Notes under the pieces: generated by a model | Told to the model about the DNA's origin: nothing | The model's input: the letters and a program-made list of their open reading frames with translations, nothing else | Databases searched by the model: none | Shown here: positions 1,888-18,418 of the stretch, piece after piece | How positions within the stretch are numbered: the first letter of the stretch is position 1 | How the letters are laid out: the number at the start of each line of letters is the position of its first letter | Position numbers and translations under genes: made by a program | IMG/VR virus record: IMGVR_UViG_3300042534_000214 | Span: 1 to 48,864 of that record | Source: a virus | Length of the DNA stretch: 48,864 bases | Strand: one strand, 5' to 3'

Positions 1888-2544
1888 ATGAAGAAAGTAT
1901 ACATTGTAGGACGCAGTTTCTTTGGTGATTTTGTACAGATGTTCACCAAGCGTGGATGGACTATCGTTGACAACATTGACGATGCTGATGTTGTACAATT
2001 CACAGGTGGTGCAGACATTGACCCTAAATTCTATGGTCAGCATGAGCACAAATACACAGGCACTTCTCCAGCCCGTGATAAAGAGGAGTATGCAGCCTTC
2101 ATTGAGGCCAAGCAGAAGGGAAAATTCCTGGCTGGTGTATGCCGTGGCGGGCAACTTCTTAATGCCCTGTCTGGTGGTAATATGTACCAGCATGTGGATA
2201 ATCATGGTCTTGGTCTTGGCGGGCATGGTATGGTCGATGTCCAGACAGGAAAGGTGATTCCTGTATCCTCTCTGCATCACCAGATGATGATTCTTGGGGA
2301 CAAGGGCATCCTCATGGGACGTAGTGAGAAGGTGCGAAGCCACACCAAGCTGTTAATGACCCCTTTGCATGAAGAACCGGGAGAAGTGGAGGATACAGAT
2401 GATACGCTGGAAGTGGAAGCATGCTTCTATCCGCATACTAAGGCGTTCTGTTATCAGCCACACCCTGAATTCATGAGCGATAACCATCCGTGCCGTGAAT
2501 GGTATTTTGAGAAGCTGAATGCTCTGTTGGAGGAATATGCGTAA
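1888..2544 (+). CDS. class I glutamine amidotransferase-like hydrolase (peptidase C26 type)
   Basis: 218 residues, a stand-alone GATase-1 domain. The nucleophile elbow GVCRGGQ places Cys at residue 85, and the His-x-Glu pair is in PHPEF (H192, E194), completing a Cys-His-Glu triad. The N-terminal segment (ADVVQFTGGADIDP) and LHHQ are typical of gamma-glutamyl hydrolases such as PuuD. Members release ammonia from glutamine or cleave gamma-glutamyl amides. The gene has a clear ribosome site (AACAGAGAG) and sits at the head of a block with a class II amidotransferase, two amidoligases and an ATP-grasp enzyme. This suggests it removes or supplies a gamma-glutamyl or amide group for them. Confidence 0.88.
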   Translation: MKKVYIVGRSFFGDFVQMFTKRGWTIVDNIDDADVVQFTGGADIDPKFYGQHEHKYTGTSPARDKEEYAAFIEAKQKGKFLAGVCRGGQLLNALSGGNMYQHVDNHGLGLGGHGMVDVQTGKVIPVSSLHHQMMILGDKGILMGRSEKVRSHTKLLMTPLHEEPGEVEDTDDTLEVEACFYPHTKAFCYQPHPEFMSDNHPCREWYFEKLNALLEEYA

Positions 2545-2764
2545 GTTCCAAGTTGGGGACACTGTGGTGATGTCGGAGGAGGGACGTATTAAATACAGGG
2601 ACAGACCAGACAATCCACATCACTTACAAGGAACAGTAAATAGTTCCAGAGATGCTCCCGATGCCTTTTCCTTTTGCTTAAATGTCATCTGGGACAACGG
2701 GGAATTCAATGGTTATCGCACTATTGATTTAGAATTTGTTAACTTAATTGTGGAGAATGAATGA
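2537..2764 (+). CDS. small SH3/KOW-like protein ending in ENE
   Basis: 75 residues from ATG 2537, behind GGAGG. An upstream ATG at 2519 is possible, but the family opening K-F-Q-V-G-D-T-V favours this start. It overlaps the end of the class I amidotransferase by 8 bases and ends LIVENE. The last codons (GGAGAATGA) double as the ribosome site of the class II amidotransferase. This is one of about twelve related small proteins in the genome. The predicted fold is a small beta barrel. No function is known. Confidence 0.75.
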   Translation: MRKFQVGDTVVMSEEGRIKYRDRPDNPHHLQGTVNSSRDAPDAFSFCLNVIWDNGEFNGYRTIDLEFVNLIVENE

Positions 2765-4125
2765 TGTGCGGACTCGTAGGTATTGCTGGTGAAGTGGGCT
2801 GCAAAGAAGAGAAGATGTTTGCAGACCTGCTGATGCTGGACACTGTACGTGGGGCACATTCCACTGGTGTAGCTGCAATCAGTTCGGCAGGGAATGGGTA
2901 TAATCTGCATGTGGAAAAGAAAGCTGTGTCTGGTCCTGAGTTTGTATCGACACCAGCATTCTCCTCCATCAAAGCTCGTGTCAATCGCATTCTGATGGGG
3001 CACAATCGATTTGCAACCAAGGGTGAAATCAATGACGATAACGCCCATCCATTTGAATTTGATAAGCTTGTAGGGGCACACAACGGCAGCCTCACCTATT
3101 TCTCCAACATGTTTGAACACGAGAAGTATACCGTGGACAGTCAGGCGTTGTATTCAGATATCAATGAGAATGGTATCGATACAACATGGGGCAAGATGAA
3201 TGGGGCTGCTGCTCTTACGTGGATTGAAACGGACACCCTCCATATCAATTTCCTGCGTAACAAAGAGCGCCCTCTGTTCTATTGCTACGGCAACAAAGGC
3301 CGCACCCTCATCTGGGCTTCAGAGCCTTGGATGATTATGGTGGCAGCTATGCGTCAAGGGGTTGACGTAGAAGAGAAATGCCACGACGTTACCATCAATA
3401 CACTGTACACTTTCGAAGTCCCTCTCACTGCGGACAAGAAGGAGAAAGTGGCACTGAAACGCCGAGAGGTAAAGCCTTACGTCCGTCCGGCCTATTCGGG
3501 TGGTTGGAATGGCTATTCTACGGAGACCTACGTTAACCGTGGCAAGCAATTTCTTGACAAAGAGAAAGCAACCTACGGCGATACGCTGTTCTTCACGGTT
3601 GATACCATCAAAGACTACGACTCCAACGGCTACGAGCAAGCGGATGTAGTTGGTAAAACCGTTGAGGGAACTCCCATCCGTGTCCTTCATCTGGATGCGA
3701 ATAAGAACGACGCCCTCTTGCTGGAGATGTGGGAACAGGATAATGCGGTATTCAGTGGACGCGTAAGCTATGCTGATGACCGTGGTATTGTGCTATCTGC
3801 TTTTGGTATTGCCTCATGTGGATACACGCTGGCTGACCTAGCCGATAGCGATACACTTGATGAAGGTGTTGAAGCTTTAGGCCAGGAGAACCACAAGCCA
3901 AAAAAGGAGGAAGGCGTAAAAGAAGAAACAGAAAAGCCCGTTATTAAACGCATCAGCTACAAGATTGGCTGTAGCTATTGCCGTCAGATGGTGAGTGCCT
4001 ATTACTGTGACAAGGAACTAGGTATCTCTGTGTGCTGTGAAGAATGCTGGGACACTAGCATGGCTCACTTAACTGTTCAACAACGTAATGCTGTAGGCAA
4101 TGGTGCCTTCCAGCGTACTCATTAA
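2764..4125 (+). CDS. class II (Ntn) glutamine amidotransferase with C-terminal zinc ribbon
   Basis: The N-terminus reads MCGLVGIAG. The enzyme needs Cys exposed after Met removal, so the start is ATG 2764, not the ATG three bases earlier. This start overlaps the previous stop (TGATG). Family signatures are RGAHSTG, NRFATKG and GAHNGSL, as in GlmS/PurF glutaminase domains, which hydrolyse glutamine to ammonia. No synthase domain is recognisable after about residue 220. The C-terminus carries CSYC...CCEEC, a probable zinc ribbon at about residues 400-430. At 453 residues it is longer than a bare glutaminase domain, so the C-terminal part may dock partners or substrate. The lysine- and glutamate-rich linker near residue 385 looks flexible. 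Confidence 0.88.
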   Translation: MCGLVGIAGEVGCKEEKMFADLLMLDTVRGAHSTGVAAISSAGNGYNLHVEKKAVSGPEFVSTPAFSSIKARVNRILMGHNRFATKGEINDDNAHPFEFDKLVGAHNGSLTYFSNMFEHEKYTVDSQALYSDINENGIDTTWGKMNGAAALTWIETDTLHINFLRNKERPLFYCYGNKGRTLIWASEPWMIMVAAMRQGVDVEEKCHDVTINTLYTFEVPLTADKKEKVALKRREVKPYVRPAYSGGWNGYSTETYVNRGKQFLDKEKATYGDTLFFTVDTIKDYDSNGYEQADVVGKTVEGTPIRVLHLDANKNDALLLEMWEQDNAVFSGRVSYADDRGIVLSAFGIASCGYTLADLADSDTLDEGVEALGQENHKPKKEEGVKEETEKPVIKRISYKIGCSYCRQMVSAYYCDKELGISVCCEECWDTSMAHLTVQQRNAVGNGAFQRTH

Positions 4126-4144
4126 TTAACCATAGGAATATATC

Positions 4145-4609
4145 ATGGCAACTAAATTCTTGGTTGGTTTGCCTTATGAGGTTCACGCCAACGGAGATAT
4201 AGAAAAACGCCGTGGTATCGGATTTTTAAAAGCATTTCCAGATAAAGATGGTTATCTTAAGGTGGTAATATGTAAATTTAAAAGGTCACATAATTTCTTC
4301 GTTCATAGGATTGTTTATGAGGCATTCCGTGGACCTATCCCAGAGGGTGTAACTGTTGACCACATAGACGGGAACAAGTTAAATAATCACATAGATAACT
4401 TGCAACTGCTCAGTGTGAGAGACAACGTAATAAAAGGTAACGCCAAGTTATACCAATTCATATCTCCAGATGGAGTTGTGTTTGTGGTGTATAACTTGAG
4501 AGAGTTTTGTAGAGAGCATGGCCTTCACCGCTCTCATATGTATGCAGTTCACAATGAAATTAAATCTCATTATCAACATAAAGGTTGGAGAAAGTATTAT
4601 GAAAACTAA
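4145..4609 (+). CDS. HNH homing endonuclease
   Basis: 154 residues with a ribosome site AGGA and ATG at 4145. The central segment VHRIVYEAF...VDHIDGNKLNNHIDNLQLLS is the HNH_3 homing-nuclease core, with the catalytic His of DHIDGNK and Asn residues following. The C-terminal part (REFCREHGLHRSHMYAV) looks like a NUMOD/HTH DNA-binding module. It is inserted between the class II amidotransferase and the first amidoligase and overlaps the latter's start, so it may be mobile relative to the operon. Confidence 0.88.
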   Translation: MATKFLVGLPYEVHANGDIEKRRGIGFLKAFPDKDGYLKVVICKFKRSHNFFVHRIVYEAFRGPIPEGVTVDHIDGNKLNNHIDNLQLLSVRDNVIKGNAKLYQFISPDGVVFVVYNLREFCREHGLHRSHMYAVHNEIKSHYQHKGWRKYYEN

Positions 4610-5417
4610 ATATTCTGTAGGCTGTGACCCTGAAATCTTCGTATCTAAAGATGGTAAACTCGTCTCTGCCTTTGGTCTGATTGAAGGCACAAAGAACGCC
4701 CCTCTGGTGGTAGACCGTGGTGCTGTGCAGGTAGATGGCATGGCACTGGAATTCAACATTGATGCGGCTGGCTCCGAAGAGCAGTGGTTGGGCAACATCA
4801 ATAGCGTAATGGCTACGCTGGAAAGCATGGTGCCTGGCTACAAGCTGGAGTGTCAAGCTGTCGCTGAATTCGGTGCTGAATACATCAAGGCCCAGCCTGA
4901 GAAGGCTAAAGAGCTGGGATGTGACCCAGACTATGATGCCTACATTGTAGGTATTAACCCACGTCCTAATGGCGACCTGCCATTCCGTTCTGCTGCTGGT
5001 CACATCCACGTTGGAATCCCTGAGACAGAAGGGGACGCTCCAGTGCAGGATGCTGATTACATTGCATGGGTGGCCTCTAAGGTGCGTGAGCTGGACTTCT
5101 ATCTGGCGCTACCTTCTCTGTTCTATGACAACGACACCAAGCGCCGTGAGCTGTATGGTAAGCCTGGTGCGTTCCGTCCTAAGAAGTATGGCTTTGAATA
5201 CCGTACACTGTCCAACCAATGGCTCAAGAGTGATGAGCTGAAACGCTGGGCATATCGTGCCACTCAGTATGGGATGGAACAGATGGACAAGGGCATCAGC
5301 CTGTTCGATAAGTATGGCAGCGCTGTGCAAGACATCGTGAACAAGTCTGACAAGGCAGAAGCGTCACGCATCATTAAGGCAGAGGGTCTGATTCTTCCCG
5401 CTGGTCTGGTGGTTTAA
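4599..5417 (+). CDS. phiEco32-type COOH-NH2 ligase (amidoligase)
   Basis: The start is ATG 4599 behind GGAGAAAG; longer in-frame starts lie inside the homing nuclease. The 272-residue protein carries the signatures I associate with the phage COOH-NH2 ligase family: GCDPEIF (residues 8-14), VDGMALEFN (E51), AGHIHVG (H135, H137) and FEYRTL (E200, R202). The acidic and His residues match metal-ATP ligands of the glutamine-synthetase-like fold. Such enzymes join a carboxylate to an amine through an acyl-phosphate. The substrate is unknown. Neighbouring amidotransferases and an ATP-grasp ligase suggest a multi-step amide or peptide pathway. Confidence 0.88.
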   Translation: MKTKYSVGCDPEIFVSKDGKLVSAFGLIEGTKNAPLVVDRGAVQVDGMALEFNIDAAGSEEQWLGNINSVMATLESMVPGYKLECQAVAEFGAEYIKAQPEKAKELGCDPDYDAYIVGINPRPNGDLPFRSAAGHIHVGIPETEGDAPVQDADYIAWVASKVRELDFYLALPSLFYDNDTKRRELYGKPGAFRPKKYGFEYRTLSNQWLKSDELKRWAYRATQYGMEQMDKGISLFDKYGSAVQDIVNKSDKAEASRIIKAEGLILPAGLVV

Positions 5418-5615
5418 ATGATTCAGGTTGGAGATATGGTCAGGCTGTTAGATTCCAGTTGCTCCTGTCATTTTTGTGAAGAAGCACAGGAAGACTACCA
5501 CGAAGTTGTGTCCAATATTGGCTCACATATACGGGTTAAACTTCACAGCGGTGGTGTGGACTTCCCGATAGATTGGGCCTTCGATGTACAAAACTCTGTG
5601 CAGGAAAATGAATAA
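5418..5615 (+). CDS. small SH3/KOW-like protein ending in QENE
   Basis: 65 residues, starting one base after the amidoligase stop (TAAATG). Opens I-Q-V-G-D-M-V-R-L. A CSCHFCEEA segment at about residues 14-22 holds three cysteines and a histidine that could bind metal. It ends SVQENE. It belongs to the small GD-family in this block; no function is known. Confidence 0.75.
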   Translation: MIQVGDMVRLLDSSCSCHFCEEAQEDYHEVVSNIGSHIRVKLHSGGVDFPIDWAFDVQNSVQENE

Positions 5616-5798
5616 ATGAAATTTCAACCTGGAGATACTGTTCGCCACCGTTCAGGTAAGGACGGCACAGTGGTGGACTATGCCCGTGGTGTAGACCGAT
5701 ATCTAGTTAGGCTACGTGGAAAAGAAAAGAGAGAGACAATCATGAAGCCAGAGAACATGATTCTAGTGAAATCCGCCCCCTTACAGGAGAACGAGTAG
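5616..5798 (+). CDS. small KOW-like protein ending in QENE
   Basis: 60 residues. Opens M-K-F-Q-P-G-D-T-V-R-H and continues SGKDGTVVDY, the G-x-V pattern of KOW/SH3 barrels. The gene abuts the previous stop exactly and ends PLQENE. Its TAG stop overlaps a GTG start of the next small gene. No function is known. Confidence 0.75.
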   Translation: MKFQPGDTVRHRSGKDGTVVDYARGVDRYLVRLRGKEKRETIMKPENMILVKSAPLQENE

Positions 5799-5962
5799 TG
5801 TGCTATAAGAAATGGTTTAATACTAAGGCATCTGTCAATAAATGGTGTATTGCTGAAAAGCAAATGGTCTTTATTGGTAAGATGTCTTGGGTTATTATCC
5901 ATGAATTCTCCTCACCACAAGAACGTAATAACAAGTTGGAGGAATTAAAGAATGCGTTATGA
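5798..5962 (+). CDS. small 54-residue protein (GTG start)
   Basis: A short open frame begins with GTG overlapping the preceding TAG (TAGTG), behind AGGAGAACG, and ends at TGA 5960-5962 inside the start of the next gene. It encodes MCYKKWFNTK..., basic and Trp-rich, with a short hydrophobic run (MSWVIIHEF) and a charged C-terminus. The tight packing, ribosome site and lack of other coding sense support it. No function is seen. Confidence 0.6.
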   Translation: MCYKKWFNTKASVNKWCIAEKQMVFIGKMSWVIIHEFSSPQERNNKLEELKNAL

Positions 5963-6560
5963 AAGTGACAAAGACATTGAGCTGCGTCTTAATGGCTCTG
6001 TGGTGATGTACAAGCAGCGTCCTGTGTTAGTGCAGGGTGTGATGGGTAATGGTGTTGTTCGTGTCACAGACATCATTACAGACACTAACGCTGATGTTAA
6101 AGTGGGGGAGCTGGACCTTGACCCATCATCAATGAAGCTGGGCTATGTTCTGGCAGAAGGAAAGCTGTTCTTTGCCCAGCGCCGTCCAGTGAGAAAGTTT
6201 AAACAGGGCCTGACACGGGACAATCTGTTCGTATTTGACGCGTTAGAGAAGCCTAATGATAAGGATATGATTGGTATTATGCGTGGGGGTGGCGGACGTC
6301 CTCATATTCATCCTGGCTCTGCTGCCTTTGCTCGCTCCATCCTTGGAGAATACCCTGATGTAGGGACAGCGTTCACGAAGGTGCGAGAAGGGAAAGCTAA
6401 GGCTCTGCCATTCTCCCGTGAATGGGCTGTGGCGGATAAGGATGATGAGCTGTGCCTTCTGTTCCGAGGGGATGTGGTTGGGTATGTTGGGGCTAATTCT
6501 GTTAAGCTCAACCGTGAACACTTCTATCTGAAAGAGAGCTTAGGGCTATGTTTAAAATAG
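5952..6560 (+). CDS. 202-residue protein of unknown function
   Basis: The start at ATG 5952 follows TTGGAGG and overlaps the previous gene by 11 bases. The protein is mostly beta-like in its first 90 residues, followed by a Gly-rich turn RGGGGRPHIHPG around residue 113 and an alpha/beta C-terminus. I do not recognise it. It lies between the two amidoligases, so it is a candidate accessory protein of that block, by context only. Confidence 0.78.
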   Translation: MRYESDKDIELRLNGSVVMYKQRPVLVQGVMGNGVVRVTDIITDTNADVKVGELDLDPSSMKLGYVLAEGKLFFAQRRPVRKFKQGLTRDNLFVFDALEKPNDKDMIGIMRGGGGRPHIHPGSAAFARSILGEYPDVGTAFTKVREGKAKALPFSREWAVADKDDELCLLFRGDVVGYVGANSVKLNREHFYLKESLGLCLK

Positions 6561-6796
6561 GCGATGAAGTTGAGCTTTATGATGCACGTATTGGGGCACC
6601 TAGCGGCCCCAAGAGCACGACAAAAGTTCCAGCATATATTGAAATAGAAGGAAAACCTGGGACAGTAATTAACCCAGAGGGAAAATCTGTCAGTGGGAAA
6701 CAATTAATATCAGTCAGAATTGGGGGGGGGGGGAAATCACCAGCGTATTTCCTTGGAGATTGCGACTTATCATGTTGGAGGCTAACGAATGAGTAA
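6548..6796 (+). CDS. small SH3/KOW-like protein with G12 tract, ending in TNE
   Basis: 82 residues, opening M-F-K-I-G-D-E-V-E-L, with GTVIN and VSVRIG strands typical of the GD-family. Near residue 59 a run of twelve Gs encodes four glycines. Slippage by one base would shift the frame and change or lose the C-terminus that overlaps the next start. It overlaps the 202-residue gene by 13 bases and ends LTNE. Confidence 0.75.
   Translation: MFKIGDEVELYDARIGAPSGPKSTTKVPAYIEIEGKPGTVINPEGKSVSGKQLISVRIGGGGKSPAYFLGDCDLSCWRLTNE
6722..6733 (+). repeat. 12-G homopolymer inside a coding region
   Basis: Twelve consecutive G residues lie in frame (Ile-Gly4-Lys). It is the longest homopolymer I noticed in the window. 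Tracts like this slip in replication and act as phase-variation switches in bacteria. It could also mark a sequencing-sensitive position. Confidence 0.9.
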
Positions 6797-7004
6797 ATTT
6801 CAAGTGGGGGACATTGTGGTAGGCAATAAACTCGCCACCGAATATTATTCCATAACCAAGGAAGGGGTGGTTTTGGAGGTGACAGAGGCTTATGATGAAC
6901 TTTTCAGAGGGAGGCCAGTCCTACGTAAATCTGGACGTGGGTATTTTGGGTTAGACTACAACGCTTTCTATTTAAAAGAATCAATTATACAGGAGAATGA
7001 ATGA
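6789..7004 (+). CDS. small SH3/KOW-like protein ending in QENE
   Basis: 71 residues, opening M-S-K-F-Q-V-G-D-I-V-V-G; the first residues are almost the same as those of the protein starting at 2537, suggesting duplication. It overlaps the previous gene by 8 bases and ends IIQENE, encoded by the GGAGAATGA that is also the ribosome site for the next gene. Confidence 0.75.
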   Translation: MSKFQVGDIVVGNKLATEYYSITKEGVVLEVTEAYDELFRGRPVLRKSGRGYFGLDYNAFYLKESIIQENE

Positions 7005-7810
7005 TGCGTTTCGAAGATAAGACCGTTGCAGAAGCTTTGAAAATTAAAAGCAAATACACCGACCACGTAGGGATTGAGATTGAAGCGGAAGGCCGCCGTC
7101 TCCCCAACATTGACACGGAGGTGTGGAAGAGTGAGCAAGACAATTCCCTCCGTGGGGAATCATTTGAATATGTTCTTCGTCACCCTGTTCCATTCAACCT
7201 CACCACGGAAGTGTTAGCGCAGATTCAACAGGAGTGGAAGAACAACGAAGCGAAGATTAAGAACAGCCCTAACGCTGGTGTGCATGTTCACATCAACTGT
7301 TCTGACCTGACGGTTAAGCAGCTTTACAATTACATCAGCCTGTTCTTGGTGGTAGAGAACATTCTGGTAGATGCAAGTGGTAAGGACCGTATTGGCAACC
7401 TGTTCTGCCTCCGTGCATCAGACGCTGAATTTCTCATTGATGCCCTGGGCTTGGCAATTCGTGAGCAAGACTTACGCATCCTCCACACTGATGAGCTGCG
7501 TTATGCTGCTATTAACGTGAAAGCGTTGGGGGATTATGGCAGCGTTGAATTCCGTAGCTGGCGTTCTGATGGAGACCTGCAAGGCATTGCATGGTGGTGC
7601 TCTCTTCTGCAACATCTGAAAGCGTTGGCACGTATTGTTGACAGTCCAGCACAGATTGTAGCAGATGTGTCTGAGAAGCGTGCTAAGGGATTCTTTGAGG
7701 CCATCCTTGGGGGATTTGTTAAAGACATTCCTTGGAAGGATGATTATGAGCAGGCTATTAACGACAGCGTGCGCCGTGTACAGCAGTTTGCATATCAGGG
7801 GAATTGGTAA
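7004..7810 (+). CDS. amidoligase (Amidoligase_2 type)
   Basis: 268 residues from ATG 7004 (TGATG overlap); ATG 7001 is also possible. Signatures of the second phage/bacterial amidoligase family are HVGIEIEAEG (E25, E27), AGVHVHIN (H94, H96) and GSVEFRSWR (E182, R184). These correspond to the metal-binding Glu/His and ATP-contacting Arg of the glutamine-synthetase-like fold. The predicted reaction is ATP-dependent formation of an amide bond between a carboxylate and an amine. Having two different amidoligases in one operon suggests two successive ligations or two substrates. Confidence 0.87.
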   Translation: MRFEDKTVAEALKIKSKYTDHVGIEIEAEGRRLPNIDTEVWKSEQDNSLRGESFEYVLRHPVPFNLTTEVLAQIQQEWKNNEAKIKNSPNAGVHVHINCSDLTVKQLYNYISLFLVVENILVDASGKDRIGNLFCLRASDAEFLIDALGLAIREQDLRILHTDELRYAAINVKALGDYGSVEFRSWRSDGDLQGIAWWCSLLQHLKALARIVDSPAQIVADVSEKRAKGFFEAILGGFVKDIPWKDDYEQAINDSVRRVQQFAYQGNW

Positions 7811-8034
7811 TGAGAGATTATTCAGATGCCCCTGAGTGGGCAACAGAAGCCTTCTTTACTAAGCCATATGAAGGAGCCTCCTCGTGGTACTACGGGAATG
7901 AGAAAATGTACATCCACATGGACCATATCAAGGAGGGTTTAAAGCCATCAATACACGACAAAGAAACTCTTAAAATCATCAGTGGGGATATCTGGTGGAG
8001 AGAGCCTCTAAATATTATTGTGGAGAATGAATGA
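7810..8034 (+). CDS. small protein ending in IVENE, function unknown
   Basis: 74 residues from ATG 7810, which overlaps the amidoligase stop (TAATG), with AGGGGA seven bases upstream; an in-frame TTG at 7804 is less likely. Unlike its neighbours it lacks the GD opening and begins RDYSDAPEWATEAFF, aromatic and acidic. It ends IIVENE through the shared GGAGAATGAATGA junction. No function is known. Confidence 0.7.
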   Translation: MRDYSDAPEWATEAFFTKPYEGASSWYYGNEKMYIHMDHIKEGLKPSIHDKETLKIISGDIWWREPLNIIVENE

Positions 8035-8224
8035 TGGCCCTAAAATGGGAACGGTGGAATATGTCTCCAGCTCTGGGCATCAGGTAGATGCCGCAGGTAA
8101 TTGCTTTCTGAGTAATGGGGGCTTTCTTACAAAATTGACAAAAATTTCTATGTCTCATGTTAAAGCCGGTAATTTTGCCGGCATGCGCTGGACTCCAGTA
8201 AACGTAATTGTAGCTAACGAATAA
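8027..8224 (+). CDS. small KOW-like protein ending in VANE (start uncertain)
   Basis: About 65 residues if the ATG within GAGAATGAATGA is used; the gene at 9451 appears to use the same position. ATG 8048 gives 58 residues beginning MGTVEYVSSSG, a G-T-V-E-Y KOW-like strand. A TTG at 8018 is unlikely. It ends VIVANE and is followed by GGAAACGAG, the ribosome site of the ATP-grasp gene. No function is known. Confidence 0.6.
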   Translation: MNDGPKMGTVEYVSSSGHQVDAAGNCFLSNGGFLTKLTKISMSHVKAGNFAGMRWTPVNVIVANE

Positions 8225-8234
8225 GGAAACGAGA

Positions 8235-8999
8235 ATGAAAACTTACATCTACTCACACAACCCACATTCAGAGGGCGCTAAGCTCCTCTCTCAAGCGCTG
8301 GACGTTAAGCGCATTAAGCATGGCAACAGCAAGTTCAAAGGGGGCATGGGGAAGGTTATTATCAACTGGGGAAGCGGACGTCTCCCTGACCAAGTAGAGG
8401 CCTGTCAACGCATCATCAACAAGCCCAATGCTATCATCAATGCATCAAACAAACTGACAGCGTTCCGCCTCTTCCGTGACGCTGATGTGTCCATTCCACA
8501 ATTCTTTACAACTAAGGCGCAAGCATGTGAATACCTTGAAAATAATCCGGGTGGCGCTATTGTCTGCCGCACTCAGCTTAATGGTCATAGTGGTGCTGGT
8601 ATTGTTATCGCCAATGCTGTTCCCGATATTGTGGAAGCATCTCTTTACACGGTTTATGTGAAGAAGCAGGAAGAATATCGCTACCACGTATTCATGGGAG
8701 CTGTTGTAGACATTCAGCGTAAAGCGCGCAAACGTGACGTCGCAGACGACGCTGTGAACTGGCAAGTGCGCAACCTCGATGGTGGGTTCATCTTTGCCCG
8801 TGAAGGCGTTGTAGAGGCTCCTGAGGGTTCTGAGGAGGCATTGAAAGCTGTGGCTGCATTGGGCCTCGATTTCGGTGCTGTAGACATCATGTATAACGCT
8901 CGTGAGAATAAATACTTTGTGCTGGAAGTTAACACAGCCCCAGGTCTGGCTGGCACTACGCTGGAAGGATATGCTAAACGTTTTCGTGAGGTGTTATGA
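8235..8999 (+). CDS. ATP-grasp ligase
   Basis: 254 residues. The ATP-grasp pattern is visible: a substrate/ATP-binding beta segment around ASNKLTAFRLFRDADVSIP (about residues 70-88), the flexible glycine-rich lid with GAIVCRT...GHSGAGIV (about 109-125), EEYRYHVF (about 146-153) and the metal-binding strand YFVLEVNTAPGLAG (about 224-237), where Glu and Asn coordinate magnesium. These enzymes make amide or thioester bonds via acyl-phosphates, as in RimK or D-Ala ligase. It is the fifth amide-bond enzyme in the block. The basic segment QRKARKRD may contact an acidic substrate. Confidence 0.9.
   Translation: MKTYIYSHNPHSEGAKLLSQALDVKRIKHGNSKFKGGMGKVIINWGSGRLPDQVEACQRIINKPNAIINASNKLTAFRLFRDADVSIPQFFTTKAQACEYLENNPGGAIVCRTQLNGHSGAGIVIANAVPDIVEASLYTVYVKKQEEYRYHVFMGAVVDIQRKARKRDVADDAVNWQVRNLDGGFIFAREGVVEAPEGSEEALKAVAALGLDFGAVDIMYNARENKYFVLEVNTAPGLAGTTLEGYAKRFREVL
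8427..8437 (+). repeat. AATGCTATCAT copy inside the ATP-grasp gene
   Basis: Exact 11-mer, again encoding Asn-Ala-Ile-Ile, continuing CAAT as at 48834. Possible internal promoter. Confidence 0.45.
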
Positions 9000-9208
9000 T
9001 GGAAGGATTTAAAAGAGGGGATTTGGTTGTTGTATCATCTAGCACTAAACATGGGAGATATGGAATTATAAGTGATGCTTTTTGGGCCAGTGCTTCACAT
9101 AAAGTGGAGGAAGTAAAAGGAAATGGAGCATTGATTATGGAAGAAGGGTATATAGTTTGGCCCGAAATGTGCTCACGATACTTTGATGGGGTGGAAGCTA
9201 ATGCGTGA
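8999..9208 (+). CDS. small SH3/KOW-like protein ending in VEANA
   Basis: 69 residues from ATG 8999 (TGATG overlap with the ATP-grasp stop) or 70 from 8996. Opens M-E-G-F-K-R-G-D-L-V-V-V. It ends VEANA, a variant of the (E/A)NE tail. Its last codons carry GTGGAAGC, which serves the overlapping next gene. No function is known. Confidence 0.73.
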   Translation: MEGFKRGDLVVVSSSTKHGRYGIISDAFWASASHKVEEVKGNGALIMEEGYIVWPEMCSRYFDGVEANA

Positions 9209-9458
9209 TTTAAAAGGTTGGCAAATTGGGGACAGGGTGATGGCTAAGGAACGTATTCCCACAAACCCATTTGAAGGGATTGCACCTGGAATGCATGGGA
9301 CAGTCATCAATATCAATTGGCAACTGTGCGTTAAGTGGGACAATTTCCACGGAGGACATAACAGTTCACAAACTGATGTTGCATACACTGGCAACAGCCT
9401 GTGGTGGGTGTTTGAAGGTACTGTAGAATTAGATGGGGGAATTGTAGAGAATGAATAA
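9201..9458 (+). CDS. small SH3/KOW-like protein ending in VENE
   Basis: 85 residues. Start ATG 9201 is chosen over the ATG at 9183 because GTGGAAG lies just upstream and the family opening L-K-G-W-Q-I-G-D-R-V follows at once. It contains GMHGTVINI and LCVKWDNF, typical KOW strands. It overlaps the previous gene by 8 bases and ends GIVENE. Confidence 0.73.
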   Translation: MRDLKGWQIGDRVMAKERIPTNPFEGIAPGMHGTVININWQLCVKWDNFHGGHNSSQTDVAYTGNSLWWVFEGTVELDGGIVENE

Positions 9459-9666
9459 ATTTAAACCTGGAGATATTGTTAGGTGTTTGAGGCACAGACC
9501 CTTAGCTGCTGGGATTAGGGAGGGGGAGCTAGCCATAATTAACGAGGTTAGGAAGTACGGTGGAATAGCATTCTACAATTACCCAGTACGCACTAGAAAT
9601 GCTCCTTGGTTGGGGGATGAAGCATGCTTTGAGTTATATGACGACGGTATAAAAGAAAACGAATAA
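9451..9666 (+). CDS. small SH3/KOW-like protein ending in KENE
   Basis: 71 residues, opening M-N-K-F-K-P-G-D-I-V-R-C. It overlaps the previous gene by 8 bases. It ends GIKENE, although the next gene starts only 37 bases later with its own ribosome site (AAGGGG). Here the ENE tail is therefore not needed for coupling. It is the last of the small proteins before the replication genes. Confidence 0.74.
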   Translation: MNKFKPGDIVRCLRHRPLAAGIREGELAIINEVRKYGGIAFYNYPVRTRNAPWLGDEACFELYDDGIKENE

Positions 9667-9703: not shown

Positions 9704-11365
9704 ATGAGTGGAATTGCTGTTGGACGTATGGGACATTCTTGTGGCTCCAGACAAGGCCTCAACCTGTACGAAGAATCCGATGGTCGTGTTACAGGGTTCT
9801 GTTTCTCTTGTAAGGGGTATGAGCCTGACCCATTGAATGGCAACACGATGGAAAAGGCTGGTATCAAACGCACTGAACGGACTCAAGAAGAAATTCAGCA
9901 AGAACTGGATGAAATTGCATCTTATAAGAGTCATGGTATTGACGACAGGAAGATTGGGCTGGGAACAGTGCGACACTTCGGCGTCAAAACTACGCTTGAT
10001 GAGGAGCGACAGGAGAAGGTTGCGGTGCATTACTATCCGTACATCTCCTTAGACACTGGCAAAGTGGATGGGTATAAGTTCCGTATCGTTGACGGTAAGA
10101 TTATCCGTTCTGTTGGTGCTATGAAGCGTGTCTATCCATTTGGTTGGGATAAGGCGATTCAGTCTGGCAGTCCTATTCTGTACATCACTGAGGGGGAGAT
10201 TGATGCTATGTCTCTCTTCTCTGTAATTATGCAGAACAACAAGAAGAGCGACAAATATGCTGAATATGTCCCTGCTGTGGTATCAGTACCTCATGGCGCG
10301 GCAGCGGCGAGCCGAGACTTATCACTCGTTGCAGCGGACATTAGAAAGCATTTTAAAGATGTGGTTCTGGTGTTTGATAACGATGACGCTGGGCGAGCTG
10401 CTGTGGAAGATACACTTAAGGTGTTGCCAGAAGCGAAGGTAGCTACAGTGCCCGGAAAGGATGTGAATGAATGCGTCCTGGAAGGGCATGTTAAGGCTCT
10501 GTTCAAGAGCGTTGTGTTTGACTCAAAGGTTCCTAAGAACACTCGTCTGGTGTACGCTGAGGACCTATTTGAGCAAGCTAAGAAGCCGCCTGAGTATGGC
10601 TTGTCATGGCCTTGGGAGCATACCACAGAGCAGACACGAGGCATCCGCTTTGGTGAAACCATCTACATTGGGGCAGCTCAGAAGATGGGTAAGAGTGAGG
10701 TGGTTAACGCCATTGCAGCTCACCTAATCAAAGAGCACGGACTTAAAGTGTTGCTGGCTAAACCGGAGGAAGCCAACGTTAAAAGCGTTAAGCTCATTGC
10801 AGGTAAGATTGCAGGAGCCATCTTCCATGACCCTAAAATACCTTTCGACGAGCAAGCGTATGACAGGGCATGTGAGGTGATGCGTGAGAAGGTTGTTCTG
10901 CTCAACCTGTACCAACATGTAGGGTGGGAGACACTACGAAGTGACATTCGTTTAGCAGCCTCCCAGGGGGTTAAGGCAGTATTCATTGACCCTATTACAA
11001 ACCTTGTGAATGGTATGGACAGTGGAGCACAGAATACAAAACTCCAAGAGATTGCTCAGGAGCTTGCAGCATTGGCATTAGACTTGAATATAGTCATCTT
11101 CATCTTCTGTCACTTGCGTAACCCTGAGAGCGGTACTCCTCATGAACGTGGTGGTAAAGTGCTGTCGTCTCAGTTTGCAGGAAGCCGTGCTATGGCACGT
11201 TCTTGTAACTATATGTTTGGCTTGGAAGGGAATAAAGACCCTGACCTTCCAGAGGACGACCGTAACTGCCGTCAACTAGTATTGCTGGAGGACCGTGAGT
11301 TTGGTGAAGTTGGGCCAACTCCTCTCTACTGGAATAAACACAACGGATTATTTACGGAACTTTAA
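9704..11365 (+). CDS. T7 gp4-like DNA primase-helicase
   Basis: 553 residues from ATG 9704 behind AAGGGG; the GTG at 9698 is part of that site. The N-terminus has a zinc-binding module (HSCG...FCFSCKGY). A TOPRIM domain follows, with YITEGEIDAM and VLVFDNDDAGRAA (about residues 160-230). The RecA-like helicase carries a Walker A-type GAAQKMGKSE (about 324-333), KAVFIDP as Walker B and FIFCHLRNP as the H motif. It makes primers and unwinds DNA at the phage fork. It heads the replication block after an AT-rich leader (CAATAATAATTATAAG). Confidence 0.93.
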   Translation: MSGIAVGRMGHSCGSRQGLNLYEESDGRVTGFCFSCKGYEPDPLNGNTMEKAGIKRTERTQEEIQQELDEIASYKSHGIDDRKIGLGTVRHFGVKTTLDEERQEKVAVHYYPYISLDTGKVDGYKFRIVDGKIIRSVGAMKRVYPFGWDKAIQSGSPILYITEGEIDAMSLFSVIMQNNKKSDKYAEYVPAVVSVPHGAAAASRDLSLVAADIRKHFKDVVLVFDNDDAGRAAVEDTLKVLPEAKVATVPGKDVNECVLEGHVKALFKSVVFDSKVPKNTRLVYAEDLFEQAKKPPEYGLSWPWEHTTEQTRGIRFGETIYIGAAQKMGKSEVVNAIAAHLIKEHGLKVLLAKPEEANVKSVKLIAGKIAGAIFHDPKIPFDEQAYDRACEVMREKVVLLNLYQHVGWETLRSDIRLAASQGVKAVFIDPITNLVNGMDSGAQNTKLQEIAQELAALALDLNIVIFIFCHLRNPESGTPHERGGKVLSSQFAGSRAMARSCNYMFGLEGNKDPDLPEDDRNCRQLVLLEDREFGEVGPTPLYWNKHNGLFTEL

Positions 11366-11366
11366 T

Positions 11367-11858
11367 ATGAATCAGCACACAAAAGATATTTACGCAATCA
11401 TTGAAGAAAACTTTAAGACCGACTACAAAAACCTTCTCCGTATCTCGGAGAATAAGCTAGGCAACCTTTGGGGGGAGGACGCCGTGATGGACACATACGC
11501 TGCTGTCCTGAAAGCTGCTCCTCGTTTACACGCTGAATATGATGTGAAATATCTGATGCGTGCTGCTCTTCATAATCGCATTAAGGACTACCTCTCTGAC
11601 CGTATTGATACAGAGGAGGTGGAAGAGGAACATCTGTACGGCGGTAATGTGGAGGACAAGTGGAAACACATTGATACAGCTAAGACAGCATTGGTGCTGA
11701 TTGATAAGTATAAAGAGCCAATGCGTACAGCGCTCTATCTGTCCTGCATTGAGGGGGTGGCTCTACGAGAAGTGAGTAGTATTGTAGAGATTCCACAGAC
11801 AACCATTCATCGACATGTTAAATCATTACGGGAGCGTTTAGATGGAATTTCCGAATAA
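11367..11858 (+). CDS. ECF-like RNA polymerase sigma factor
   Basis: 163 residues from ATG 11367, just after the helicase stop; a GTG at 11295 lies inside that gene. The region 2-like part reads GEDAVMDTYAAVLKAA...YLMRAALHNRIKDYL (about residues 33-80). The C-terminal helix-turn-helix GVALREVSSIVEIPQTTIHRHV (about 132-153) resembles sigma region 4.2. No phage RNA polymerase is encoded, so this protein probably redirects host RNA polymerase to middle or late promoters, as phiEco32 gp36 does. It could instead be a simple HTH regulator. Confidence 0.75.
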   Translation: MNQHTKDIYAIIEENFKTDYKNLLRISENKLGNLWGEDAVMDTYAAVLKAAPRLHAEYDVKYLMRAALHNRIKDYLSDRIDTEEVEEEHLYGGNVEDKWKHIDTAKTALVLIDKYKEPMRTALYLSCIEGVALREVSSIVEIPQTTIHRHVKSLRERLDGISE

Positions 11859-12123
11859 GCCTTGGTCAAGGGTGTTGGACATTCCTGTGCCAGCATGGGC
11901 AACACATCAGGTTGATTTCATTAATAGTCAGCCTGACAGCTATTCCACATGGATTGGGCCAGGAAAATTTCAACACTTTAGGGGAACTCACGAGGGCGGT
12001 GTTAGCGAGGAGGTTTTTGAGGATGACCCGTCCTTTGGTGTGAAGGAGTGGGAGAACCATCTGCTAGAAACCTGCTCCTATGTCAAGGTAATAGACCTGC
12101 AGCCAATTGAGGAGAATGAATAA
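11842..12123 (+). CDS. 93-residue protein ending in EENE, function unknown
   Basis: Starts inside the sigma-like gene (17-base overlap) behind GGGAGCG. Rich in Trp and acidic residues (KEWENHLLE). No GD opening, but it ends PIEENE through the GGAGAATGAATAATG junction. No function is recognised. Confidence 0.72.
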   Translation: MEFPNKPWSRVLDIPVPAWATHQVDFINSQPDSYSTWIGPGKFQHFRGTHEGGVSEEVFEDDPSFGVKEWENHLLETCSYVKVIDLQPIEENE

Positions 12124-12329
12124 TGGAACGTCTGGAGTTTAATTTCGATGGTTCTGACGACCTAGCTTTCTTCATTCAAGAAGATTGGGAGAATACTGAT
12201 GTGGAAGTAGAGATTGGTGTTGCCAGGGTGGATGGGGTGATGGAAAAGCTGGTACTCACTGGCTCGGAACCCCATCTCATCTACAAGTGGTTAGGTGAGA
12301 AGCTTTACCCAGTAAGGGAGAATGAATGA
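12123..12329 (+). CDS. 68-residue acidic protein ending in RENE
   Basis: Starts at ATG 12123 overlapping the previous TAA, and ends PVRENE where GGAGAATGA provides the ribosome site for the DNA polymerase. The sequence is acidic with alternating strands (VEVEIGVARVDG). No function is recognised. It may simply occupy a coupling position before the polymerase. Confidence 0.72.
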   Translation: MERLEFNFDGSDDLAFFIQEDWENTDVEVEIGVARVDGVMEKLVLTGSEPHLIYKWLGEKLYPVRENE

Positions 12330-14242
12330 AAAAAGTAAGGGTGTTTGACATAGAAGCAGACAACCTATACGACGACGTAACTACCATCCACTGCGCCGTC
12401 TTCTCCTCTCTTGATGGGAAGGAAGTGGATGAATTTGTGGAAGGTCAATGGGATGACATGAAGAAATTTATGGACTCCTGCGATGTTCTAATTGCGCACA
12501 ACTGTATTCAATATGACTTCCCTGTAATGGAGAAGCTTCTTGGGTATGTATATCCTGGGAAGAAAGTTGATACAGTGTTGATGTCTCGTTTGCAATCTCC
12601 GAACAGACCATTACCACCCACAGCATATAAAGACCCTGACGCTGTTCGTGCCCCTCATGGCTTAGCTGCTTGGGGACATCGTGTGGGGATTGCCAAGCCA
12701 CACATTGATGAATGGATGGAAATGAATGAGCAGATATTGGTGCGTTGTCGTACTGACGTCCAAATCAACGTTGCTACATATCATGCATTGATGGCAGAAG
12801 GGAAGGGGCAGAACTGGCGTGATGCTCATATGCTTACGTTTACGCTATGGGAAAACCTGTGGAAACAAGAGCAAGCTGGATGGTTAGCAGATGAACCGTA
12901 CATTAAGAAATCTATTAGTATGCTGGATAGTCATATCCGTCGTATTGACGCGGTGCTGCAACGCTATCTACCAATGACATATGAAATATTAGAAGCCAAG
13001 AAGGATGGGCAATATGGATACGTAAAGAAAGTATTTATGAAGAATGGGGACTACTCAGCGTCAGTTGAGAGACATTTCCCTGGTGTCAACTTTATGAATG
13101 ACCCGCCTGTAGCGGCTCCATTCTCCCGTATCAACTATCGTCCAGTGAATCTGGATAGTAACGATGAAACTAAAACATGGTTGCTAGAATCTGGATGGAT
13201 TCCGAAAGAGTGGAACTTAGATGATGAGGGCAATCAGCGCTCTCCCAAGATGTCTAAGGACGAGGAGTTTGAAGGTGTTGATGGTAAGATGGGGAGACTC
13301 ATCGTTAAACGCGTTCAATCGCGCCACAGACGCTCTCAGCTAGAGGGTTGGTTGAAACGTATTAGGCCAGACGGGCGCATCCCCTCCCGTGTTACAGGGC
13401 TTGCTGATACACGTCGTGCTAAACACGCTGACATTGTTAACGTACCAAACGCAGAAGCATTCTTCGGGAAGCAGATGCGTAGATGTTTCATTGCTCGTGA
13501 AGGGTGGTCATTAGTCTCAGCAGATGCTGCATCATGTCAGGATAGGATGATGTCGGAGAGGGCCGGAGACGATGCATTCACCAAGATGTTGCTGGAAGGT
13601 GATAAGGACTTAGGCACTGACAGCCATACATTAGCACGAGATGCAGTTAACAAAGTGTTAGACGCTGAACACCTGCACAGCATTAGCCGAGGGAAAGCAA
13701 AGAACTTCAACTTTGGTTGGACTTTCGGAGCCTCCGATAACAAGCTCGGTAAGATGTGTGGTGGAGGTAAAGCTGTTGGTGGAATGGTACGAGAGGCGTT
13801 ACGTGAAGTGTTCCCAGCTAAAGCTGCCTTGATTGACAAGGTGACTGCTGAGTGGGAAAGTAACGCTAAGGTGAGAATCAATAAATGGGGGAATAAGGAG
13901 TATTACAATGGCTGGATTAAAGGACTAGACGGTGCACCAATCTTCATTGCGTCAGGGCATGCTGTGTTAGTGTATGCTGTACAGTCTGATGAAGCTGTGT
14001 ATATGAGTGCTGTGTACAATCTTGTGCATAAGTATTTAGCTCGTAAATACAAATGGGGAGAGGACTACGTAGTTGTGTGTTGGTATCACGACGAGATAAC
14101 TGTGGAGTGTAGAGATGAAATCAAAGAGGACGTCGCTACTATTCTGGAGAGCGCATTCGACGCAGCATCACGTTACTTAAAACTTGGTGTGCCCCAGAAA
14201 GGGGAAGCATCAATTGGCAAAAACTGGTTAGAGGTGCATTAA
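12326..14242 (+). CDS. T7-like family A DNA polymerase
   Basis: 638 residues. Exonuclease motif I FDIEAD (D8, E10) and motif II AHNCIQYDF (N59, D64) are present, but motif III reads RCRTD (R140, D144) where the tyrosine of YxxxD is expected, so proofreading may be weak. Polymerase motif A is SADAASCQDRMM, motif B RGKAKNFNFGWTFGAS, and motif C WYHDEITVE (about 586-594). It is shorter than T7 gp5 (704). It replicates the phage genome with the primase-helicase and ssDNA-binding protein. The start overlaps the upstream stop by 4 bases (ATGA). Confidence 0.93.
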   Translation: MKKVRVFDIEADNLYDDVTTIHCAVFSSLDGKEVDEFVEGQWDDMKKFMDSCDVLIAHNCIQYDFPVMEKLLGYVYPGKKVDTVLMSRLQSPNRPLPPTAYKDPDAVRAPHGLAAWGHRVGIAKPHIDEWMEMNEQILVRCRTDVQINVATYHALMAEGKGQNWRDAHMLTFTLWENLWKQEQAGWLADEPYIKKSISMLDSHIRRIDAVLQRYLPMTYEILEAKKDGQYGYVKKVFMKNGDYSASVERHFPGVNFMNDPPVAAPFSRINYRPVNLDSNDETKTWLLESGWIPKEWNLDDEGNQRSPKMSKDEEFEGVDGKMGRLIVKRVQSRHRRSQLEGWLKRIRPDGRIPSRVTGLADTRRAKHADIVNVPNAEAFFGKQMRRCFIAREGWSLVSADAASCQDRMMSERAGDDAFTKMLLEGDKDLGTDSHTLARDAVNKVLDAEHLHSISRGKAKNFNFGWTFGASDNKLGKMCGGGKAVGGMVREALREVFPAKAALIDKVTAEWESNAKVRINKWGNKEYYNGWIKGLDGAPIFIASGHAVLVYAVQSDEAVYMSAVYNLVHKYLARKYKWGEDYVVVCWYHDEITVECRDEIKEDVATILESAFDAASRYLKLGVPQKGEASIGKNWLEVH

Positions 14243-14433
14243 TGGTTAAAATTACATACGATAAATACACAAATAAATACTTCCTAGCGTTCACAGACAG
14301 CAATGTTGTGGCCTTGGATTTTACAGAGGTGGAGGCTCTCTCAGAACAGCTTAAGGACATTTGTCGTGAACAACTGGAGCTGTCCTTACAATTCGATGTT
14401 GACAACGATTGTGGTGACGCATGCAAGATTTAA
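14242..14433 (+). CDS. 63-residue acidic protein, function unknown
   Basis: Begins on the last base of the polymerase stop (TAATG). Strand-helix pattern with an acidic C-terminus (QFDVDNDCGDACKI). Preceded by AGAGGTGC. No family is recognised. Confidence 0.7.
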   Translation: MVKITYDKYTNKYFLAFTDSNVVALDFTEVEALSEQLKDICREQLELSLQFDVDNDCGDACKI

Positions 14434-14636
14434 AAGTAGGGGATTACATCCACGTTGTTCAGAGGTCTCTCAGACCTCAGGAAGCGTTTTACGCAACTGT
14501 AAAGGAGATTATTAATGATGAGAATACTGGTCAATTTCTAATAGCTGTTGTCATTCCAGATGGTGGAAAGACTCAACGATTAGTATTCGCTCACAATAAA
14601 ATAACCTTAGTAAATTTAATTGAGGCTAATGAATGA
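14421..14636 (+). CDS. small SH3/KOW-like protein ending in EANE
   Basis: 71 residues, opening M-Q-D-L-K-V-G-D-Y-I-H-V-V. It overlaps the previous gene by 13 bases and ends LIEANE, encoded by GAGGCTAATGA, which also serves the next start. Member of the small GD-family. Confidence 0.73.
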   Translation: MQDLKVGDYIHVVQRSLRPQEAFYATVKEIINDENTGQFLIAVVIPDGGKTQRLVFAHNKITLVNLIEANE

Positions 14637-15798: not shown

Positions 15799-16590
15799 AT
15801 GCAGCCTTTGATTGATAGTGACATTCTGCTTTATGAGATTGGCTTTGCCGCTCAGCAGAAGACAGAAACGGGGATTATTCTTAAGCCCGTAGAAGAAGTG
15901 AATGATATGATGGATATGCGTATTGAGGAAATCTGTGCTGCTGTCTACGCTACAGAGCCTCCTAAGCTATTCATCACTGGGAAAGGAAACTTTCGTTATG
16001 AGGTGGCTAAGTCTCGTGAATATAAGGGCAACCGTAAGCAGCTCAAGCCGCATTACTACAACTACCTAAAGAAATATCTGGTGGCAAAGTGGAATGCTAT
16101 AATTGTTGATGGTATGGAGGCAGATGATGCCCTCACCATTGAGCAGACTAAACGGTTGAAGCAACGAGACACAATCATCTGTAGCCGAGACAAGGACTTG
16201 AAACAATGTCCTGGTTATCACTACACATGGGAATGCGGTAAGCAAGGGAGTTGGGGTCCAGCATGGGTGGACGAAATTGGGAGCCTAACGCTCAAGGGGC
16301 CAAAGAAACTCATTGGGACAGGTAGCCTGTTCTTCTACTCTCAATTGCTTACAGGGGACAGCACAGATACATATGACGGACTTCAAGGCTGCGGCCCAAT
16401 TCGCGCGTATGAAATTCTTAGTGGAGCTGAAAGTGAGTTGGATATGTATAACCGAGTTCTTGAAGCTTATAAAAACAAATATGGTGAAGATGCTGAGGCT
16501 CGTCTTTATGAGCAAGCACAGCTAGCCTACATGATTAGGGAGGTGGATAGTGAGACAGGAGAGATTGTTCGATTTGAAAGACCAAGCTGA
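15799..16590 (+). CDS. 5'-3' exonuclease (FEN-like, T7 gp6-type)
   Basis: 263 residues. Acidic metal-binding motifs of the flap-nuclease family are present: LIDSD at the N-terminus, DGMEADDA (about residues 106-113), CSRDKDLKQ (about 126-134) and TGDSTDTYDGLQGCGP (about 187-202), the last including the helix-hairpin-helix. It would remove RNA primers and degrade host DNA. It sits directly after the SSB module. Confidence 0.9.
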   Translation: MQPLIDSDILLYEIGFAAQQKTETGIILKPVEEVNDMMDMRIEEICAAVYATEPPKLFITGKGNFRYEVAKSREYKGNRKQLKPHYYNYLKKYLVAKWNAIIVDGMEADDALTIEQTKRLKQRDTIICSRDKDLKQCPGYHYTWECGKQGSWGPAWVDEIGSLTLKGPKKLIGTGSLFFYSQLLTGDSTDTYDGLQGCGPIRAYEILSGAESELDMYNRVLEAYKNKYGEDAEARLYEQAQLAYMIREVDSETGEIVRFERPS

Positions 16591-16711
16591 GGCATTTGCT
16601 TTCTATCAAGCACACCCCTCAGAAGATGTTCACATTGCCAACTGGATAGCCGCGTGGACGCATTACATTGTTTATTGGTTTGAAGAGGATGTGATACAGG
16701 AGAATGAATGA
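16565..16711 (+). CDS. 48-residue protein ending in QENE (TTG start)
   Basis: An open frame from TTG 16565 (or TTG 16574, better spaced from AGGAGAG) runs to TGA 16709-16711. It encodes a Trp- and Tyr-rich segment (NWIAAWTHYIVYWFEED) and ends VIQENE via the same GGAGAATGAATGA cassette that starts the HNH gene. No ATG exists in frame, so the start is uncertain. The shared tail supports that it is translated. Confidence 0.5.
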   Translation: MFDLKDQAEAFAFYQAHPSEDVHIANWIAAWTHYIVYWFEEDVIQENE

Positions 16712-17905: not shown

Positions 17906-17941
17906 TGTAGAGACAATCTTCAAACCTAAGTGGAGCGTATA

Positions 17942-18418
17942 ATGACTACAATCGCATATAAGAATGGTGTTCTGGCAGCAGATGGTCGTATGACCGCTGG
18001 TGGTAATATTGTAACTGACAAGCTGGAGAAAATCTTTGATGTCGGTGACCGAGACTACACAGTCTTGGGTGAGAAAGTGTTGGCTTATGGCTTGGCTGGT
18101 TATCTGCGAGCAAAGCTGGTGTTAGAGTATTGCATGGAAGAGGGTTTGAAGGTGACATCTTCTATCGACACTGACGACCAGTTTAGTGCCATCATTGTAT
18201 GTGAGAAACGTACATTTGTGGTGAGCAAAGATGAAGAGAGCGCTCAGCTAGACTTCATTGAAATCCCTGATGGCATTCCTACTGCTGTAGGCTCAGGACG
18301 TGTCATTGCTACACACATCCTGCGAGATGATAAAGCTGACCCTCTGGACGCTGTAGTGGCTGCCATGAAGAGCGATGTAGGTTCTGGTGGGGAGACAATG
18401 CGGTGGGTGAAGAGTTAA
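17942..18418 (+). CDS. HslV/20S-like N-terminal-Thr Ntn hydrolase
   Basis: 158 residues from ATG 17942 (GGAG upstream); an earlier ATG at 17930 would bury the nucleophile. After Met removal the protein begins TTIAYKNGVLAADGR, close to the HslV N-terminus, with catalytic Thr (residue 2), Asp14 in AADGR and Lys27/Lys30. ATAG-type glycines follow (YGLAGYLRAK), and VGSGR matches the later beta-core motif of proteasome-type proteases. No AAA unfoldase (HslU) partner is encoded. It could act on host or phage peptides, use host HslU, or process amide-linked products of the amidoligase block. Confidence 0.83.
   Translation: MTTIAYKNGVLAADGRMTAGGNIVTDKLEKIFDVGDRDYTVLGEKVLAYGLAGYLRAKLVLEYCMEEGLKVTSSIDTDDQFSAIIVCEKRTFVVSKDEESAQLDFIEIPDGIPTAVGSGRVIATHILRDDKADPLDAVVAAMKSDVGSGGETMRWVKS

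Follow-up and report, generated by a model that had tools for sequence, protein, structure and literature searches.

Genome-specific C-terminal tags on small proteins encoded within a phage amide-bond module

Introduction

Several groups of phages, among them the phiEco32-, LUZ24-, PA11-, CW02- and phiM6-like phages, carry a module of amide-bond enzymes, which two later papers attribute to Iyer et al. 2009 (PMC6256558, PMC10580990). The authors of the phiM6 study listed seven open reading frames (ORFs) for peptide-bond synthesis and, citing Iyer et al. 2009, proposed that they modify the host peptidoglycan (PMC6256558). No biochemical report of the product of this widespread module was found in the literature. 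Here we analyze the module in IMG/VR virus record IMGVR_UViG_3300042534_000214 (positions 1 to 48,864; a complete record of 48,864 bases, hereafter “the window”) and describe a short C-terminal tag shared by small proteins, many of which are encoded within the module.

The module of the window is one already described, and its enzymes are ordinary for this phage group. Compared with the phiEco32-, LUZ24-, PA11-, CW02- and phiM6-like phages, the enzymes show no essential difference, their order is near-identical, and the neighboring genes (primase, sigma factor, DNA polymerase) are alike. What sets the present analysis apart are the tagged small proteins, which are absent from the published accounts of the module; the tag itself seems undescribed in the literature examined, which for both statements excludes Iyer et al. 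2009 and for the latter also the phiRIO-1 paper. An earlier, sequence-only reading of the window had proposed a five-gene block. The module instead comprises seven conserved genes, joined in some phages by a cyclotransferase, and had been published before (PMC6256558); that reading also overlooked the tagged small proteins, the first concrete candidates for the target of the module.

For the enzyme families themselves the chemistry is established, and three cellular systems offer a comparison for enzymes that act on protein ends. RimK, the glutamate ligase of ribosomal protein S6, lengthens a protein C-terminus (PMC11957791), LysX recognizes the EDWGE C-terminus of the small protein LysW (PMC10433800), and PafA uses the C-terminus of Pup (PMC7947786). 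The parallel drawn below would be a functional one and carries no claim of membership in any of these families.

Tagged small proteins of the window

Ten small ORFs of the window end in ENE, compared with 0.03 expected from composition, and all of them lie on the plus strand. In order, they end in VENE (2537 to 2764, SH3-like), QENE (5418 to 5615), QENE (5616 to 5798, with the next conserved gene about 150 nucleotides downstream), QENE (6789 to 7004, SH3-like), VENE (7810 to 8034), VENE (9201 to 9458), KENE (9451 to 9666, SH3-like), EENE (11842 to 12123), RENE (12123 to 12329) and QENE (16550 to 16711). The KENE protein has no coupled downstream gene, and its ENE is encoded by GAA AAC GAA. Further small ORFs of the same strand end in the variants ANE or TNE, namely in LTNE (6548 to 6796, SH3-like), VANE (8027 to 8224) and EANE (14421 to 14636, SH3-like), while a VEANE C-terminus with its stop codon lies at 47388 to 47405 and belongs to a small ORF whose body matches a LENE-tagged ORF of phage CVT22 (ending at L003:14175). 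Only one of the small ORFs inside the module lacks the NE ending; it is SH3-like and ends in EANA (8996 to 9208, plus strand).

An SH3-like motif is found near the N-terminus of 97 of the 169 tagged ORFs (57%) and of 81 among 535 untagged ORFs of the same phages (15%). A second tagged family, distinct from the SH3-like one, bears “(A)P[EAS]WAT” near the N-terminus and occurs in the window (7810 to 8034, 11842 to 12123) as well as in relatives (L001:9822-10079 and 16085-16318; L002:3673-3924).

The tag behaves as a signal at the protein level. Within genomes, the last four codons differ by 0.155, 0.089 and 0.383 at codon positions 1, 2 and 3, respectively, and slightly upstream of the tag the three positions show similar differences (0.67, 0.60 and 0.70). 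The tag codons of phiM6 follow the same pattern (0.27, 0.17 and 0.61, versus 0.74, 0.73 and 0.72 upstream). Moreover, 36 tags have no coupled downstream gene; here GAA often replaces the GAG of a Shine-Dalgarno sequence, such that the residue is kept. It is the variation at third positions, together with the retention of uncoupled tags, that places the signal in the protein. The DNA of the tag core, in addition, is almost confined to the tag frame.

Each genome has its own tag

The nearest relatives of the window are Citrovirus phages (Zobellviridae) from Klebsiella, Erwinia and Citrobacter hosts. Matching ORFs of relatives end in LENE (CVT22), LEND (Pecta), LENK (Klebsiella phages), MENE (T2S1) or LEENV (CW02), and across 160 module-bearing IMG/VR loci further sets were found that are each peculiar to their own genome: LEDWM/LEDWL, LEEYM/LEDYL, YEELYT, DEDLYY, FKGNK, F[KR]GN and VERLV. 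In phiM6, 14 small ORFs adjoining the module share a 13-residue tag built around DQEPxEEEETL; its pattern is [RK][VIA]DQEPx[ED][ED]E[ED]xL, with close variants.

When small proteins were compared after removal of the tag, orthologous bodies proved to bear the tag of the genome in which they reside. In this test, the window proteins ending at 5615 (QENE) and 9666 (KENE) match Asterion 10016 and 13236, both LENK, and the window protein ending at 12123 (EENE) matches Klyazma 16318 (LENK). Likewise, CVT22 16722 (LENE) matches both Pecta 4523 (LEND) and CW02 3442 (LEENV), and Pecta 11292 (LEND) matches L089 12205 (FKGNK). The tag is therefore specific to the genome and not to the gene. Within one genome, on the other hand, similarity between the small proteins is seldom detectable (Citrovirus set). 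On a tree of the ligase, tag types cluster, with 6 changes where the minimum is 5 and the shuffled mean is 17.8. The genome-specific tags on orthologous bodies suggest a single reader per phage that would change together with the tag.

Tags are concentrated inside the module

In six annotated relatives we compared small ORFs located between P470, the first gene of the module, and the primase gene (“inside”) with small ORFs elsewhere. Tags are present on 51 of the 56 ORFs inside and on 19 of the 107 others, which gives an odds ratio of 47 and p = 1.5e-20, a nominal value because the ORFs of one operon are non-independent. The enzymes of the module, in the window and in the annotated relatives, are themselves untagged. 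Sets of at least four tags occur in 28 of 165 module loci, and no set above three was seen in 120 random viral loci (1.06 Mb). Among 132 loci picked by tag-encoding DNA alone, four contain the module, and the three with at least five tags all do so, although these three contigs had come up in module searches as well. Offset, random-locus and shuffled controls rule out a chance origin of the tags. By several independent tests, all performed on sequence, the C-terminal address is real. A supposed association of the tag with gamma-glutamylcyclotransferase (GGCT), or with ATP-grasp gene loss, turned out to be wrong once profiles were applied.

The enzymes of the module

The seven conserved genes encode P470, a class I and a class II glutamine amidotransferase (GATase-I and GATase-II), a COOH-NH2 ligase, P202, an amidoligase and an ATP-grasp ligase; all lie on the plus strand. 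The five enzymes with catalytic motifs that the sequence-only reading had recognized were all assigned by profile searches, their active-site residues are invariant in the aligned relatives, and the families it had named (COOH-NH2 ligase, Amidoligase_2, ATP-grasp and both GATase classes) are borne out by Pfam, PHROG and profile matches.

GATase-I (1888 to 2544) is a gamma-glutamyl hydrolase-like member of Peptidase_C26 (1e-16; phrog_7218, 6e-50) with an intact triad of C85, H192 and E194, of which Cys85 and the His192-Glu194 pair are invariant in phage alignments. The nearest solved enzymes are gamma-glutamyl hydrolases of the PuuD type; its profile matches PuuD and related hydrolases and also a “probable glutamine amidotransferase”. 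GATase-II (2764 to 4125; GATase_6, 3e-12; phrog_18128, 1.5e-73) is an N-terminal nucleophile enzyme, whose start is placed at 2764 and not at 2761, so that the catalytic cysteine falls at position 2. Its profile matches the glutaminase domains of GlmS and PurF; Cys2, Asn107-Gly108 and a C-terminal CxxC...CxxC motif, probably a zinc ribbon, are invariant in the phage alignments.

The two ligases of the glutamine synthetase (GS) fold, the COOH-NH2 ligase (4599 to 5417; PF14395, 7e-11; phrog_3815, 1e-78) and the Amidoligase_2 protein (7001 or 7004 to 7810; PF12224, 4e-10; phrog_7469, 2e-84), both retain invariant acidic, His and Arg motifs, which in the COOH-NH2 ligase, aligned from ten phages, are D10-P11-E12, E51, H135, H137, R182 and E200. 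The RimK-like ATP-grasp ligase (8235 to 8999) is the weakest assignment of the five, as all Pfam models stay under the cut-off and the assignment draws on phrog_2599 (1.3e-86); a nine-sequence profile matches RimK structures best (5zct, 1.6e-7; 4iwx, 1.9e-7).

P470 (496 to 1863; phrog_34254) is a conserved 455-residue protein, in which Cys224, Ser274, Arg312 and His361 are invariant in the alignment. Its AlphaFold model (predicted local distance difference test score, pLDDT, 85) begins with a tandem Tudor/SH3-like region, which is followed by a C-terminal domain without a match; Foldseek found no PDB match to the Cys-His domain at E<=0.001. P202 (5952 to 6560; phrog_11055), a conserved protein of 202 residues, is modeled with a Tudor/PWWP-like fold (pLDDT 93, Foldseek) and, as a single-sequence query in IMG/VR, gave no match. 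Names based on folds were dropped for both proteins, since the Foldseek matches are weak, cover SH3-like parts only and include none with E below 0.001.

This gene order recurs across Zobellviridae and was found in Klyazma, Asterion, CVT22, Pecta, PA11, CW02, GP100 and T2S1. LUZ24-like and phiEco32-like phages have related sets, and such sets were seen in PaP3 and phiEco32. Order kept in six or more phages shows that the block is not due to chance. The link to phiEco32 drawn in the sequence-only reading likewise holds, as the Pfam family is named “Phage phiEco32-like COOH.NH2 ligase” and the set is present in phiEco32. The COOH-NH2 ligase matched 313 phage records, and so did the ATP-grasp protein. 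A single rightward transcription unit, as proposed before, is plausible in view of the shared strand and overlapping stops and starts, but matches to promoters and terminators are near chance.

A gamma-glutamylcyclotransferase gene is found near the module in PaP3, phiEco32, CW02, phiM6 and contigs of the L020-L058 class. GATase-I is not annotated in PaP3 and phiEco32; CW02 and phiM6 carry both genes, and the cyclotransferase therefore replaces GATase-I only sometimes.

Small tagged proteins as possible clients

We tentatively favor, with somewhat less than even confidence, the reading that a known peptide-amide module acts on small, mostly SH3-like proteins, which a shared, phage-specific tag marks as its clients. 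In this scheme, the two GS-fold carboxylate-amine ligases and the RimK-like ATP-grasp enzyme would form amide bonds, with the class II glutaminase as a likely source of ammonia or peptidase partner. The C26 gamma-glutamyl hydrolase, or the gamma-glutamylcyclotransferase in other phages, would remove or edit amides, taking off a gamma-glutamyl product. The tag would serve as an address for a single phage factor, the likeliest reader being the module, and client tails docked at the tag might then be lengthened, capped or linked to a further amine, much as RimK acts on S6, LysX on LysW and PafA on Pup. The SH3-like parts of the tagged proteins, P202 and P470 would suit such docking. The enzymes with their conserved residues, the nature of the tag as a protein signal peculiar to each genome, and its enrichment within the module are read from the sequence itself; the module as reader, the nature of the bond and the benefit to the phage are what we infer. 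That the module makes or edits gamma-glutamyl or peptide amides, as the sequence-only reading had suggested, is consistent with the RimK- and PuuD-type matches and with the neighboring cyclotransferase.

A more specific form is possible though rather doubtful: a protein conjugation system, in which 10 to 16 small clients peculiar to the phage bear a common, rapidly reprogrammed C-terminal code and the ligases and hydrolases of the intervening genes would attach or remove an amide-linked group there, as a viral counterpart of Pup, LysW or RimK with many clients and a code of each phage's own. The phage ATP-grasp sequence is nearest to RimK, whose substrate site is a protein C-terminus; unlike RimK, it has two GS-fold ligases and two GATases as partners. 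In the LysX-LysW pair an ATP-grasp enzyme reads the short acidic C-terminal motif of a small protein, and some phage tags (LEDWM/LEDWL) are reminiscent of it, whereas LysW requires a C-terminal Glu and the phages have many tagged proteins each, with various ends. Pupylation shares a GS-fold ligase, the C-terminus of a small protein and a hydrolase partner, yet Pup is single and disordered and the bodies of the phage clients look SH3-like. Searched at E<=1, the COOH-NH2 ligase profile gave no sequence match to structures of PafA, Dop or GS.

Several observations weigh against clients of the module. No tag is detectable in 99 of the 117 module contigs on the ligase tree (~85%), which disproves a single tag for all module phages, and PA11, GP100, PaP3 and phiEco32 show no tag set. 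The last residue of the tag varies by phage (E, D, K, V, T, Y, M, L, N) and thus fits no fixed C-terminal Glu chemistry; in place of a Pup-type GGE/GGQ or a LysW-type EDWGE ending, the small ORFs end in ENE or the variants listed. Where genes overlap, most tags form part of the ribosome-binding site of the next gene. Finally, the association of tag and module could reflect where a family of small proteins happens to sit.

If the tagged proteins are clients, viruses would have a new type of chemistry for tagging proteins, whose recognition code is self-contained and can be reprogrammed. The tagged proteins are named, testable candidate targets in the cultured phages CVT22, CW02, Klyazma and phiM6. 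Even with another reader, it is surprising that a dozen small phage proteins, otherwise unrelated, share one C-terminal address across the genome, and this provides a handle on uncharacterized phage proteins.

Alternative explanations

The tag might instead be a localization or interaction motif for a factor of the phage or host that lies outside the module, such as RNA polymerase, the ribosome, a protease or some hub protein, while the module acts on, e.g., peptidoglycan. We regard this as a serious contender, albeit on balance improbable. It would account for the many module contigs without tags and for the tags near the polymerase and elsewhere (the 19 of 107 ORFs outside the module), and cell-wall modification is favored in published proposals (PMC6256558, PMC10580990). 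A candidate protease is also at hand, since the window encodes an HslV-like peptidase; however, CVT22, CW02 and phiM6 are absent among the matches listed in the HslV search. A conserved host reader is unlikely because the tags differ wholly between phages, and searches with the tag alone retrieved coherent sets only together with the module.

The HslV/proteasome-beta-like peptidase (17930 to 18418, plus strand) has counterparts in three Klebsiella relatives, in Pecta and in many jumbo phages. A proteasome-like subunit near a Pup-like ligase set is suggestive, with inconsistent linkage. As an obligate partner HslV is unsupported by its distribution, CVT22 and CW02 being absent among the matches listed.

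We consider it unlikely that the tag is a by-product of translational coupling, i.e., a Shine-Dalgarno sequence plus spacer near an overlapping start, with the module ordinary and the small ORFs unrelated to it. Coupled tags do mostly contain GGAG, GAGG or AAGG at a suitable spacing, and in contig L366 several genes share LENN C-termini with identical DNA (TTGGAGAATAACTAATG), which occurs out of frame too. Yet codons vary mainly at third positions, also in phiM6, GAA tags persist where no gene follows, the core DNA is nearly restricted to the tag frame, and coherent tags are much commoner inside the module. Nor does a Shine-Dalgarno site account for YEELYT, DEDLYY or the 13-residue phiM6 tag. 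The pattern of codon positions, the uncoupled genes and the length of some tags led us to reject a pure ribosome-binding-site origin for most tags; it was retained for L366, in which conservation extends to the DNA. In this 161 kb contig (reverse strand, 106 to 2235), small ORFs end in LENN or VENN and the element is unchanged in and out of frame; no COOH-NH2 ligase was found in L366, and the repeat looks like a conserved ribosome-binding site.

Decidedly unlikely, in our view, is that the module produces a small gamma-glutamyl metabolite or edits one of the host, with neither proteins nor the wall as its target. Gamma-glutamyl amines are the substrates of cyclotransferases, and GATase-I matches PuuD and the “probable glutamine amidotransferase”. 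The ATP-grasp profile, in contrast, is nearest to a ligase of protein C-termini, no genes of an amine or DNA-modification pathway were seen among the window ORFs searched, and the tags would be left unexplained.

Very improbable, and rejected by the ortholog test, is recent duplication, by which the small ORFs would be young paralogs with ends shared by descent: some within-genome pairs are alike (47-51% in CW02, several in L025) and the SH3-like motif is enriched in tagged ORFs, but most tagged window ORFs have no detectable within-genome paralog yet match differently tagged orthologs, one tag is found on bodies of two or more types (SH3-like and APEWAT), and the codons have diverged.

Other features of the locus

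In relatives the module adjoins the primase and sigma factor genes, and in the window a sigma-factor-like ORF (11295 to 11858) follows the primase gene at this conserved position. A search of the window against Rfam gave no match. The module of the window is interrupted by an HNH endonuclease gene (4145 to 4609, plus strand; PF13392, 2.9e-18), probably a mobile gene. In relatives, HNH genes are also inserted elsewhere in the module and within the primase gene (L001:7218-7652 and 11925-12392; L002:14349-14783), a scatter that is expected for mobile homing genes.

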